Assembly: GCA_025462735.1 (NCBI GenBank) | Contig: JAOAPC010000014.1 | Span: forward strand, 62,001-126,000 | Reading direction: 5' to 3' | Source of the DNA: Acidobacteriaceae bacterium | GTDB taxonomy: Bacteria; Acidobacteriota; Terriglobia; Terriglobales; Acidobacteriaceae | Length of the DNA: 64,000 nt | In this document: piece by piece, positions 47,721 through 56,028 of the stretch | How positions within the stretch are numbered: position 1 is the first letter of the stretch | Layout of the letters: every line of letters starts with the position of its first letter | The notes under the pieces: model-generated | What the model was told of the DNA's origin: nothing | What the model saw: only the letters and a program-made list of their open reading frames with translations | Database searches by the model: none | Made by a program: the position numbers and the translations under genes

Positions 47721-47818
47721 CCACGCAGCAGCACAAGCCGTGTGGGTCGGACATTCCTGTCCGACAAAACCACGCAGCAACACAAACCGTGTGGGTCGGA
47801 CATTCCTGTCCGACCAGC
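47721..47818. repeat. Two-copy tandem repeat, 49-bp period, containing cgtgtgggtcggacattcctgtccgac
   Basis: ccacgcagcAgcacaaGccgtgtgggtcggacattcctgtccgac at 47721 repeats at 47770 with few substitutions. Confidence 0.85.
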
Positions 47819-47821
47819 CCA

Positions 47822-48832
47822 TCAATCGATCGGTGGCACCTGGGAGCGTTTCCCGAATTTTTCTCCAACCACGTGCAAGTTGCTATCTAACTCGACGGTC
47901 GCGGCCAGAGTGCTCCCGCCGCGCAGCGGCGGATAATCGAAACGCAAATCTTTGAAATGAACGCTCCATCCTTCTCCGGAAACCGTTTCCGTGACCAGCG
48001 GATACTGCGCCCAATCCAGATACACGCGTCCTAAATAAGATTTCTTTGCAGCAAGCGTGACCTCAGTCTCAGACGGCTTGGGAACAAGCTCAGTCTCGAA
48101 GCGATTCAATTCGCCGGTTTGAGAGTCAATGTCCGAAGTCGCGAAGAAGTCACGCGTCTCCGCCACGGCGTACCAGCGGTAAAGATGCCAGTAATAGGGA
48201 TAGACCGAAACACGGGTCGGCATTGCCGATCTGAATTGCTGGTGCTCAAGCGCATGCATAGCTTTCCGATGTTCATGATCTCGTGCGGCATATAAGACGA
48301 TCACGCACACCAGAGCAACGGTTGCGGCAGTACGTCCGCGGGGCAACGGCCAGTGTCGCGAGAAGATTGCGGGCAGGACCAGGCCTGCAATCAAAATCAC
48401 ATACAACGCCGGCTCAACGATGAAAACTATGTCCCAGGAATACCACTTCTCCCAAAAAGGCCAGAACGGCCGCACGCCGTAGTTGTTGGTGTAATCCAGC
48501 AGGATGTGGCTCAAACCGGCAACGTACGCGAAAAGAAATAAAAGTCCCCACCTCGGAGGCAGGTTGGGAAGATTGGTTTCTCTTCCCCGCAATCGCCAAA
48601 CCAGGTACATGAAGCCGGTAACCACGGCCGAGACGAGAATCAAACCAACAAAAGAGTGCGTGAAGCCGCGATGATGTGCGAACCCAACCACTGGACCTTT
48701 GAAGCTCCACAACACGTCCAAGTCCGGAGCTTCGGCGGCAAGGGTCATGGTCGCGGTGGCCAGCGCCGTCTTGCGGTTGAATCCCGCTCGCGCCAGAACC
48801 GCGCCGGTTAGGAAATGAGTGATGGGTTCCAA
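47822..48832 (-). CDS. YdjM-like metal-dependent membrane hydrolase
   Basis: MEPITHFLTGAVLARAGFNRKTALATATMTLAAEAPDLDVLW...HHRGFTHSFVGL; SHILLDYTNNYG. Confidence 0.88.
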   Translation of the reverse strand: MEPITHFLTGAVLARAGFNRKTALATATMTLAAEAPDLDVLWSFKGPVVGFAHHRGFTHSFVGLILVSAVVTGFMYLVWRLRGRETNLPNLPPRWGLLFLFAYVAGLSHILLDYTNNYGVRPFWPFWEKWYSWDIVFIVEPALYVILIAGLVLPAIFSRHWPLPRGRTAATVALVCVIVLYAARDHEHRKAMHALEHQQFRSAMPTRVSVYPYYWHLYRWYAVAETRDFFATSDIDSQTGELNRFETELVPKPSETEVTLAAKKSYLGRVYLDWAQYPLVTETVSGEGWSVHFKDLRFDYPPLRGGSTLAATVELDSNLHVVGEKFGKRSQVPPID

Positions 48833-48858
48833 GTGAAGTTTGTAACATAGGTGCTAGT

Positions 48859-48980
48859 CCGTGTGGGTCGGACACTCTTGTCCGACATGCCGCAAGGGAT
48901 GACATAGCAGGGCCAGGCCTCCCTGCCGTACTTTGCTGGGCGGGATGGCATTGTTGGACAAGAGTGTCCGACCCACACGG
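48859..48980. repeat. Inverted repeat of the same gtgtgggtcggacactcttgtccgac family
   Basis: Left arm 48859-48891 ccgtgtgggtcggacactcttgtccgacatgcc; right arm 48947-48980 ggcattgttggacaagagtgtccgacccacacgg. Confidence 0.85.
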
Positions 48981-50094: not shown

Positions 50095-51297
50095 GTGAGC
50101 ACGACTATCCCATCCTTCGCGAAAATCAACATCGGCCTGCGCATTGGCCCATTGCGACCGGATGGCTTTCATGAACTGCGCACGATGTACCAGACGATTG
50201 CTTTGCACGACATGGTCAGCGTTTCTGTTGGGCGCGGCTCGGGAATCGAGATTCGTTGCGACGATCCACGTGTCCCAAAGGACTCGACCAATACCTGCTT
50301 TCGGATCGTCGAGCGCGCCATGCAGGCACTCGGGGCCCGCGGCCGCGTTGTGATCGAGATTCAGAAGCGGCTTCCGGTGCAGGGGGGTTTGGGGGGAGCA
50401 TCAGGAAATGCGGTCGCGGCCCTGCTCGCACTGGAACGGGCATTGCGAAAAAAGCTCCCAGCTCCAGAGCGGCTGGGAATTGCAGCCGAGATTGGCTCCG
50501 ACCTTCCGCTATTTTTGATCGGCGGCACGGTTTTAGGCGTTGGTCGGGGAGAAGAAGTTTATCCCTTGCCAGACCTGTCGACGATCCCATGCGTAGTCGC
50601 TCTACCCGAAGTAGCAGTCTCAACACCAAAAGCGTTCGCGGATTGGGACAGCTTGTGTGGCGCGGGCGCCGCCCGCGAACACGAAGTCAACAAAGTCGTC
50701 GCCACTGACCCTGCACCCAAAAGCGAAAATGCCACCGCATTCGGGATGGCCACCACGACCGGGCAGGGCACGGCTTCCAGCCGTGCCGAACCTAGCCAGC
50801 ATGCTGATAGGGCTTTAGCCCCTGAGGCAGTCGCCGAGCGCAGCTCGGCCCGGACGGGCGAGGGCGCCCGTCCCCACACAGACAGTAGCAAATTGACGCT
50901 CTCTACTCACTCCGATAGAATGTTGGAGTTCAGCCGTGAGATTTCTGCGTGGTTGAATGCGGTGCCGATTGCCGGTCGCCGCAGATCCGGTGTCTCCACT
51001 ATAGGCGGAGGCCGGGCCGAGAACCTACAGCTCGACCTTGTCCGAACCGGGATTGAAAACGACTTCGAGAAGGTCGTCTTCCCAAAATATCCCGAAATGC
51101 GCGAGGTCAAGCGTGTGCTCGAACAGTCTGGGGCGCGGTATGCGTCGCTCTCCGGATCTGGTTCTGCCATTTACGGCCTGTTCGACTCGAGAGAGAGCGC
51201 AGCCGCCGCGGCAAAAAAGTTTTCTCGGCACGGTACGCGCACTGTGGTGACGAGCACCTTGACGCGGCAACAGTATTGGAAAGCTCTTAGCTTTTAG
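50095..51297 (+). CDS. ispE: 4-diphosphocytidyl-2-C-methyl-D-erythritol kinase with internal extra segment
   Basis: PSFAKINIGLRIGPLRPDGFHELRTMYQTI; PVQGGLGGASGNAVAALLALE; SLSGSGSAIYGLF. GTG start; 400 aa, longer than typical IspE. Confidence 0.93.
   Translation: MSTTIPSFAKINIGLRIGPLRPDGFHELRTMYQTIALHDMVSVSVGRGSGIEIRCDDPRVPKDSTNTCFRIVERAMQALGARGRVVIEIQKRLPVQGGLGGASGNAVAALLALERALRKKLPAPERLGIAAEIGSDLPLFLIGGTVLGVGRGEEVYPLPDLSTIPCVVALPEVAVSTPKAFADWDSLCGAGAAREHEVNKVVATDPAPKSENATAFGMATTTGQGTASSRAEPSQHADRALAPEAVAERSSARTGEGARPHTDSSKLTLSTHSDRMLEFSREISAWLNAVPIAGRRRSGVSTIGGGRAENLQLDLVRTGIENDFEKVVFPKYPEMREVKRVLEQSGARYASLSGSGSAIYGLFDSRESAAAAAKKFSRHGTRTVVTSTLTRQQYWKALSF
50661..50873. repeat. Palindrome-dense segment inside ispE
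   Basis: Perfect inverted repeats at 50661-50677 (7+3+7), 50767-50787 (9+3+9), 50810-50821 (5+2+5), 50833-50849 (7+3+7), 50852-50873 (9+4+9). Confidence 0.9.
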
Positions 51298-51331: not shown

Positions 51332-51357
51332 TACTGGGCCGTCGACTAATGGTAGGT
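51332..51357 (+). pseudogene. Duplicated 5' half of tRNA-Gln
   Basis: tactgggccgtcgactaatggtaggt is identical to 51445-51470 (upstream flank through D-arm of tRNA-Gln); no anticodon or T-arm follows. Confidence 0.9.
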
Positions 51358-51447
51358 TGAGGCGTTTAGCGGGCGTCTGAGCCCGCTGCCGAAATCCTGA
51401 GTGAAGCGAAGGATCTCAGTCGCCGGCGAAGCATAAGGTTGGAATAC

Positions 51448-51521
51448 TGGGCCGTCGACTAATGGTAGGTCAAGTGCCTTTGGAGCACTTTGTCTAGGTT
51501 CGAATCCTAGCGGCCCAGCCA
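51448..51521 (+). tRNA. tRNA-Gln(TTG), CCA encoded
   Basis: Acceptor TGGGCCG/CGGCCCA, anticodon stem AGTGC/GCACT with loop CTTTGGA, T-arm CTAGG TTCGAAT CCTAG, GCCA end. Confidence 0.95.
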
Positions 51522-51627: not shown

Positions 51628-52662
51628 ATGGCTACCCTGGCAACCGCGACCGAAAAAAAGATGAACGCCGACGAGAAGCACGAGCGCAAGCCGCACCGCG
51701 CCCGTGTCGATGAAAAATTCAAGATCTTCTGCGGGACAGCGAATCAGCCGCTCGCAGATGAGGTCTGCGCTTTTCTCGGAATGACTCGCGGCCAGGCATT
51801 CTTGAGAAGGTTTGCCGACGGCGAGGCCTACGTTCAGATTCAGGAGAACGTTCGCGGCGCAGACGTATTTGTCATGCAGCCGACCTGCCGTCCGGTAGAT
51901 CTCCACTTGATGGAATTGTTGCTGATGATTGACGCTTTGAAACGAGCTTCGGCGCGGCGCATCACCGCCGTGATCCCGTATTACGGGTACGGACGTCAGG
52001 ACCGAAAGGACAAACCGCGAGCGCCGATTTCGGCGAAGTTGGTGGCTGATTTGCTGACCACCGCGGGCGCGGACCGCGCGCTGCTGATTGATCCGCATGC
52101 ACCGCAAATTCAGGGCTTTTTCAATATTCCGGTGGACCATCTTTTTGCCTCTCCTGTGCTGGTAGATCATTTCAGGAAACTGAACCTGCCCAACCTGACT
52201 GTCGTTTCGCCAGATGCAGGCGGCGTGGAACGCGCAAGATTCTTCGCGAAGAAAGTCGATGCCGCTCTCGCCATCGTCGATAAGCGGCGGGTAGAGGCCA
52301 ATGTTGCGGAAGTAATGCACGTAATCGGTGACGTTGCGGGGCGCACGTGTTTGGTGATCGACGATCTGATTGACACCGCAGGTACCTTGGTTAAGACCGC
52401 AAGCGCTCTGATGGAGAACGGAGCCAGCGCCGTTTATGCGTGCTGTTCGCATCCGGTATTTTCCGGCCCGGCGGTCGGAAACATTCTCGAGTCGTGTATT
52501 CGCGAAGTAGTGGTCACCAACACGATTCCGTTGTCAGAGGAAGCACAGAAGGCGACCACGCAGTGCGGCGGCAAGATTACAGTTCTTTCCATCGCTGGAT
52601 TGATCGGACGCGCGATCCAGTCGATTCATGAAGAAACGTCCGTGAGCAAACTGTTCTTATAG
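51628..52662 (+). CDS. prs: Ribose-phosphate pyrophosphokinase
   Basis: FKIFCGTANQPLADEVCAFLGM; YVQIQENVRGADVFVMQP; YYGYGRQDRKDKPRAPISAKLVADLL; CLVIDDLIDTAGTLVKTASAL. Confidence 0.97.
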   Translation: MATLATATEKKMNADEKHERKPHRARVDEKFKIFCGTANQPLADEVCAFLGMTRGQAFLRRFADGEAYVQIQENVRGADVFVMQPTCRPVDLHLMELLLMIDALKRASARRITAVIPYYGYGRQDRKDKPRAPISAKLVADLLTTAGADRALLIDPHAPQIQGFFNIPVDHLFASPVLVDHFRKLNLPNLTVVSPDAGGVERARFFAKKVDAALAIVDKRRVEANVAEVMHVIGDVAGRTCLVIDDLIDTAGTLVKTASALMENGASAVYACCSHPVFSGPAVGNILESCIREVVVTNTIPLSEEAQKATTQCGGKITVLSIAGLIGRAIQSIHEETSVSKLFL

Positions 52663-53415: not shown

Positions 53416-53434
53416 GACGGGCGTCTCGCCCGTC
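53416..53434. repeat. gacgggcg-tct-cgcccgtc hairpin
   Basis: Perfect 8+3+8 inverted repeat between rplY and pth; same core as 50852-50873, 55690-55706 and 55809-55825. Confidence 0.8.
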
Positions 53435-55632: not shown

Positions 55633-55825
55633 CCTTTGCCGCCACGATGTACCGCAGCTGGCATCACCGCGTGTGAGATTGTGGAGCTACGGGCGTCCTC
55701 GCCCGTAGCATTCCCGACCAATTTTGATCCGAAATCATCGCGACACAAACCTGTTCCCTGCCACGATGTAAACGTAGCGGCATCTCCACCGCCTTCCGGG
55801 ATTTGGAGCTACGGGCGCTCTCGCC
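55633..55825. pseudogene. Two degenerate copies of the mpg 3' end, each followed by an acgggcg hairpin
   Basis: gccacgatgtaccgcagctggcatcacc (55640) and gacacaaacctgttccctgccacgatgtaaacgtagcggcatctccaccgccttc (from 55742) match mpg 3' end at 56055-56109. Confidence 0.8.
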
Positions 55826-55871
55826 CACCATTTTCTTAGCTGACACCGAACTGCTCGCGCTTCCGCAAAAC

Positions 55872-56028
55872 GGGAAGGGCATGACTTCAGTCGTGCCGCA
55901 AAGGCACTACACGAATGACGGCTTTAGCCGCTGAGGGACTCTCTGCGTATTGAGGGAGGTTACCTCGGAGGCTAAAGCCATATCTTCTGGCGGAATCTAT
56001 CGGCACGAGTAAAACTCGTGCCCTTCCC
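55872..56028. repeat. Nested palindromic element
   Basis: Outer arms gggaagggcatgacttcagtcgtgccg / cggcacgagtaaaactcgtgcccttccc; inner ggctttagccgctgaggg / cctcggaggctaaagcc. Confidence 0.75.

Follow-up and report, generated by a model that had tools for sequence, protein, structure and literature searches.

Short palindromic repeats that lie inside genes have been described in several bacteria. REPs of the GTAG and CGTC super-families occur in many copies, mostly between genes, and the survey by Di Nocera et al (2013; PMC3733652) also reports clusters of REPs in frame within ORFs, where they account for 43-82 aa in Thauera and R. conorii. According to that survey, DNA-repair genes are among the hosts, and recB of two Xanthomonas species is hit at about the same site; RPE, a palindromic repeat, lies in frame in housekeeping genes and is apparently tolerated there (PMC3733652). 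Acidobacteria, namely Koribacter, Terriglobus, Granulicella, and Acidobacterium, are listed among the carriers of TIRYT transposases, with one dispersed TIR family in Koribacter; in the part of the survey consulted, we found no description of TIR repeats inserted into a gene in frame (PMC3733652). QMITE1 and QMITE2 of Coxiella burnetii are small inverted-repeat elements that overlap ORFs, and QMITE1 has sigma-70 promoters (PMC5896051).

Here we analyze 64,000 nt of DNA (the window) from an Acidobacteriaceae genome in which the ispE gene carries palindromes of this kind within its reading frame. The best explanation of the whole, to which we give a probability of about 0.8, is that REP-like repeats lie in a disordered linker of ispE beside a regulatory block. 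The locus resembles the intragenic REPs, as they are presented in PMC3733652: short multicopy palindromes, some in frame within ORFs and often clustered, with DNA-repair genes among the hosts. It differs from them in that the ispE hot spot is common to many genera and adjoins a predicted embedded promoter. The original prediction had likened the segment to the RPE of Rickettsia, and functionally the likeness is fair: by description, both are in-frame palindromic repeats in housekeeping genes that are apparently tolerated. Rickettsia, however, belongs to another phylum and has another lifestyle, and in anatomy the nearest systems appear to be the intragenic REPs and the TIR repeats of the Acidobacterial TIRYT transposases (PMC3733652). 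The features of the locus, in window coordinates, are as follows.

50095-51297, plus strand: ispE (4-diphosphocytidyl-2-C-methyl-D-erythritol kinase), 400 aa, GTG start
50650-50892, plus strand: in-frame insert, a linker of variable length compared with close relatives, 243 nt or 81 codons
50650-50679, minus strand: family-B repeat in reverse orientation, containing the palindrome at 50661-50677
50661-50677: palindrome 1, 8+1+8, equivalently 7+3+7
50728-50741, strand not given: 14-mer AATGCCACCGCATT, found at one other genomic place only, beside a Y1 transposase locus
50760-50827, plus strand: family-A repeat with two hairpins (50767-50787 and 50810-50821), of the type that brackets Y1_Tnp genes
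50767-50787: palindrome 2, 9+3+9
50810-50821: palindrome 3, 5+2+5
50829-50886, plus strand: family-B repeat in forward orientation (hairpins 50833-50849 and 50852-50873)
50833-50849: palindrome 4, 7+3+7
50852-50873: palindrome 5, 9+4+9
50893-50898, plus strand: predicted -35 box TTGACG, codons Leu-Thr
50916-50921, plus strand: predicted -10 box TAGAAT, codons Asp-Arg-Met, 17 bp from the -35 box
50987-51050, plus strand: covarying RNA core, a predicted three-way junction in frame with ispE, about 65 nt after the -10 box
51059-51077, plus strand: hairpin ACGAC..GUCGU after the RNA core, with 3/5 pairs invariant and little covariation support
51448-51521, plus strand: tRNA-Gln (TTG)
51628-52662, plus strand: prs, ribose-phosphate diphosphokinase

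The ORF at 50095-51297 is identified as IspE by NCBIfam TIGR00154 with a score over the cut-off. Five palindromes in one open ispE frame, adding about 70-80 aa to the protein, had been predicted; all five are present at the predicted geometries, and the added segment measures 81 residues, which sit between the conserved IspE stretches STPKAFADWD and LT....SDRM. Within the 241 nt from 50650 to 50890, four of the five palindromes have arms of at least 7 nt, a number reached by none of 5000 first-order Markov shuffles of that stretch and the highest value among all equal-sized tiles of the window. At least two repeat families make up the insert, in the order B reversed, A, and B forward. About 77 nt of it (50680-50757) match no repeat family found here, apart from the 14-mer, whose other copy lies about 115 nt upstream of a family-A copy at the transposase locus L122. 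The 14-mer, with this single other copy, could not be built into a family and was dropped as one. A repeat search run on the insert alone found no repeats.

We built profiles of both families from a 1.58-Mb sample of the genome (four contigs, 36% of the total). BLAST of the insert against its own genome returned 50 matches, all to parts of the insert, and the profile searches recovered 40 copies of family A and 55 of family B in the 1.58 Mb. Family A is about 69 nt long, with a strong hairpin, GGGCACGGCTT...AGCCGTGCC, a second hairpin, GGCTTTAGCC, and a TGAGG end. Family B covers about 43 nt in the profile, and more with a small neighboring hairpin; its center is GGACGGGCGAGGGCGCCCGTCC, and its C-rich tail runs to ..CACA. 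A candidate 'family C' turned out to be B in reverse and was dropped. Both families are REP-like, being short palindromes with many dispersed copies per genome. They seem to differ from the GTAG and CGTC REPs, to which we do not assign them, in that no unpaired tag was recognized at the foot of the hairpin: A lacks one in the copies read, and CGTC in B occurs only inside the paired stem. They also differ in their host, as Acidobacteriota are not listed for those REPs in PMC3733652. Copies of B are free of stops in 85-96% of cases in each of the six frames, those of A in 23-62%; the high proportion for B would make it tolerable in any orientation.

The original prediction took the segment for inserted intergenic palindromes and held that their absence from the rest of the genome would count against it. 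BLAST and the A and B profiles do place the element elsewhere in the host genome; the idea of recurring palindromes stands, except that at least two repeat families are involved rather than one. It had also placed a core, ggacgggcg/cgcccgtcc, in hairpins at 53416, 55690, and 55809. The exact core is absent from all three (53416 has gacgggcg, 55686 only acgggcg, and the match at 55809 is imperfect), but it does recur elsewhere, with GGACGGGCGAGG present 11 times in the 1.58 Mb. Between genes, at window positions 55871-56028, there is an inverted pair of family-A copies, an intergenic counterpart for the copy in ispE. A further palindrome family, GTCGGACAnnnnTGTCCGAC, has three copies at window positions 47746-48886 and 20 in the 1.58 Mb.

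The genome has 12 matches to Y1_Tnp (PF01797). Four of these genes (L117, L118, L121, and L122) are flanked within a few hundred bases by family-A copies in inverted pairs, the bracketing described for RAYT/TIRYT genes (PMC3733652). From this anatomy we infer that family A may be mobilized by Y1 transposases. In arrangement, A is like the TIR repeats of TIRYT transposases (TIRtrons) as described in PMC3733652, since it both brackets Y1 genes as inverted pairs and is dispersed. Family B is unlike them: none of the 12 genes is bracketed by a B pair, although B copies lie downstream of L117 and beside L120 and L125. A lack of transposase pairing is also reported for the CGTC repeats in the same survey (PMC3733652). 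Y1_Tnp genes were found in 21 of 23 Acidobacteriaceae genomes versus 8 of 14 in the neighboring family of the order. Other Y1_Tnp genes (L114-L116, L119, L120, and L124) are flanked by distinct hairpins of their own, such as CCCAGCAC..GTGCTGGG, TGTCTC..GAGACA, and GCAGCGCTTTAGCGCTGC; the differing hairpins imply that several repeat-transposase pairs coexist.

We compared the linker between the two conserved anchors in 62 relatives from the family. Its length ranges from 1 to 84 codons, with a median of 23, and is a multiple of three in every case. Not one of the 1778 linker codons in the ispE frame is a stop; the other two forward frames contain 107 and 130 stops over a slightly wider stretch. 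We recognized A or B in the linkers of 23 of the 62 relatives, scattered on the tree. B is forward in most repeat-bearing linkers and reversed in L143; two B copies are present in L008, L133, and L136, and A occurs in L006, L007, L010, L018, L128, and L130. Placed on a tree built from the conserved IspE parts, the three labels require 14 changes or more, and the well-supported branches alone demand about 5; many forks of this tree are weak, weak repeat matches were scored as 'none', and the relatives are not independent. The distribution shows repeated gain or loss of repeats at the ispE site, to which we attach no exact count. Even in the closest relatives, the flanks are too diverged for an exact empty site or target duplication to be read. 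The original prediction would have suffered had distant homologues carried the same conserved segment; the ispE genes examined in other families of the class lack it and have a short segment only at this place, and alignment with the relatives' IspE shows a segment of variable length with no conservation of residues. Judged by these alignments, the linker of ispE is a hot spot to which repeats return throughout the family. Other repeat-like peptides (LRLRSGQA and CHSEPALAGEES) occur in the ispE linkers of L008, L134, and L007, which suggests that further repeat families use this site.

In the AlphaFold2 model, computed from a 57-row alignment, most of the protein between residues 1 and 202 and between 321 and 400 is predicted with confidence, and pLDDT stays below 50 for almost all of residues 206-320. 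This low-confidence stretch is encoded by the promoter, the RNA, and the greater part of the repeats. The top PDB matches of the protein are IspE structures. The linker is predicted to be disordered and to lie between two conserved IspE parts. The suggestion that the repeat segment is tolerated as a linker agrees with what we see: it is in frame, variable in length among relatives, and predicted to be disordered.

The 3' end of the insert abuts the -35 box exactly, and the predicted promoter reads TTGACG-N17-TAGAAT (50893-50921). The pattern TTGACn-N17-TAnnnT is present in coding phase 0 in 62/62 family relatives, in 27 of 29 further family loci, some duplicating earlier ones, and in 16 of 18 ispE genes of other families of the class, which mostly encode proteins of normal length without repeats; these genomes are related and the counts non-independent, so that the argument from codons is the stronger one. 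Indeed, the Leu codon of the promoter is TTG in 61/61 sequences compared with 18% of Leu codons in the genome, and the Arg codon is AGA in 44/61 compared with 5% of Arg codons. TTGAC, the TA and the final T of the -10 box, and the 17-bp spacing are invariant in 62/62. The residues encoded at the -10 box differ among relatives (R, T, K, I, or N, followed by M, L, or I) while the bases hardly do, and the base directly after the hexamer is free to vary. Synonymous constraint climbs at the promoter and remains high beyond it. Conservation thus acts at the nucleotide level, and with -35 and -10 boxes within the 16-18 bp expected for sigma-70 and conserved beyond coding need, a predicted sigma-70-type promoter appears to be encoded within ispE. 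Like QMITE1 and QMITE2, the repeats here are small inverted-repeat elements that overlap an ORF (PMC5896051); unlike in QMITE1, the promoter belongs to ispE, lies outside the repeat, and is conserved in genomes without one. At the sixth base of the -35 box (window position 50898), no sequence of the family has the consensus A (G 49, C 8, T 5), whereas most of those from the other families of the class do, as though the family favored a weaker promoter.

Downstream of the promoter, RNAalifold folds the RNA core as a three-way junction. Across 58 sequences, 99.2% of cells are paired, and nine pairs show double changes, amounting to 68 cells. None of 500 shuffles matches any of five measures, although related sequences can exceed shuffles, and shifting the partners abolishes the pairing. 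Covariation is strongest in helix 2, where pairing is kept while the residues change (SGVSAKGGGR, SGVPVSKGRGR, TGVPARSGDR), so the RNA structure seems to dictate the residues. Searched with the RNA model, this genome yields a single copy, located at ispE, and the 41/41 family genomes in the class sample yield one copy each. Weak R1 matches elsewhere in the class were not counted as proof of the RNA in those families, because the shared coding sequence alone could yield them. Rfam has no family match for the RNA, with the tRNA alone above threshold, and a likeness to the TPP riboswitch was dropped for want of such a match.

The next gene downstream of ispE is tRNA-Gln (TTG) in 43/43 family loci scanned, and here prs comes after it. 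Their position suggests that the promoter and the RNA would drive and lead a tRNA-Gln-prs transcript. Our literature search for an ispE-prs promoter found nothing relevant. In enterobacteria, an internal promoter for prs reportedly lies inside an upstream gene; transcription of prs from within an upstream gene would be the arrangement here as well. In the tRNA-Gln gene region, the first 23 nt (CTGGGCCGTCGACTAATGGTAGG) are present twice, at window positions 51334-51356 and 51447-51469, 113 nt apart. The upstream copy is not a full tRNA, and a family-B-like hairpin lies between the copies; the 5' end of the tRNA appears to have been partly duplicated.

We propose that two families of short REP-like repeats landed in the disordered linker between the conserved IspE parts, and that selection would have removed insertions that broke the frame. 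Translation of the surviving insert would add 81 residues to the linker without disturbing the GHMP-kinase fold; full-length translation and retained kinase activity are what we infer from the open frame. The landing pad would adjoin a regulatory block within the linker, made up of the sigma-70-type promoter, read as LT....SDR, and the structured RNA, and the linker would behave as an intergenic region enclosed in a gene, where such repeats usually persist. One could suppose instead that the segment is an old functional, IspE-specific domain that merely looks like repeats. The frame is open in every case, as this would require, but a domain of 1-84 codons with no conserved residues, with repeats in differing orientation (reversed in L143), with DNA that matches intergenic repeats, and with predicted disorder is scarcely credible. 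The least probable account is that the ORF through the insert is an artefact of metagenome-type assembly: most relatives are metagenome-assembled and palindromes are hard to assemble, yet different assemblies have in-frame A or B inserts of their own at the same site, the frame is kept in 62/62, and contamination of G000 is 0.13%. An overlapping gene or unusual codon use, in place of a promoter and an RNA, is also a very unlikely source of the nucleotide-level conservation that follows the insert. This stretch does encode protein, and a strong codon preference could mimic constraint, but an overlapping gene under the RNA was dropped because the 13 relatives inspected share no conserved alternative frame; moreover, the -10 bases stay while the amino acids change, the base after the hexamer is free, and the helices stay paired through double changes.

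Whether the repeats do anything at this site is a separate matter. They could be retained for a role in regulating the embedded promoter or the upstream message, serving for example as binding sites, as roadblocks, or as hairpins that stabilize mRNA just ahead of the -35 box. The landing pad reaches precisely to the -35 box, many genera carry repeats at this place, and REPs are reported to lie chiefly downstream of genes and to be probably transcribed (PMC3733652). About two thirds of the relatives, however, have no recognizable repeat, linkers of 1-7 codons occur with the promoter intact, and the same repeats lie in other genes without a known adjoining promoter, which makes retention for regulation unlikely. 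We favor tolerance over a regulatory role: the repeats would persist in the linker because protein constraint is weak there and regulatory DNA borders it, and a role in regulation, though possible, is unneeded, as most relatives lack the repeats. More tentative still in its scope, and possible rather than probable, is a regulatory island in which the class-wide promoter and the new leader RNA control tRNA-Gln and prs and the repeats modulate them, the RNA perhaps sensing PRPP or the glutamine/tRNA state. On the reading we prefer, repeats tolerated in a linker, one stretch of DNA appears to serve at once as protein code, regulatory DNA, and landing site for repeats.

In-frame insertion of REP or RPE elements is already published, and the greater surprise of this locus lies in the promoter and RNA embedded in it. 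We know of no description of a promoter fixed in codons across a class together with a covarying RNA. As far as we know and have searched, a case in Acidobacteriota at this scale, the family-wide hot spot in ispE, and the coupling to a promoter and RNA in the same frame are new. Both the promoter and the covarying RNA seem to impose codons and residues on a disordered linker, a possible reason why the linker exists and why repeats gather there. The locus offers one essential enzyme with dozens of natural insert states to compare, and it makes testable predictions on the transcription of tRNA-Gln and prs across the class.

In-frame palindromic insertion, known from Rickettsia, Proteobacteria, and Verrucomicrobia, extends genome-wide in this member of the Acidobacteriota. 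An element was counted as intragenic if its ORF is 260 aa or longer and extends 50 codons or more to each side of it; by this measure, 26 of the 95 A and B elements in the 1.58-Mb sample lie inside 21 spanning ORFs. Two of the 21 read uvrC and lipB in antisense, so that ispE and about 18 further ORFs remain. The hosts named by NCBIfam are RecG, UvrC, GyrB, LipB, MutS2, DnaG, a SucB-type E2, SelA, GatB, protoporphyrinogen oxidase, PurL, dGTPase, TrmFO, Der, an OppF-type ATPase, and a glutamine-amidotransferase-like protein. The element in Der, at residues 142-154, is ahead of the conserved domain that starts at 175 and may be outside the real gene. In RecG, LipB, and GyrB, the structure alignment breaks at the element: residues 446-476 of RecG fall between 514 and 518 of 1gm5, residues 153-210 of LipB between 140 and 143 of 1w66, and residues 745-814 of GyrB between 703 and 721 of 7z9c. 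Residues 317-390 of UvrC are spanned by about 7 codons in a relative of the same genus (G003). The uvrC gene (G000:C13:216171-216414) contains an in-frame cluster of A and B copies, and its region 314-395 differs in length among relatives; uvrC may be a second hot spot.
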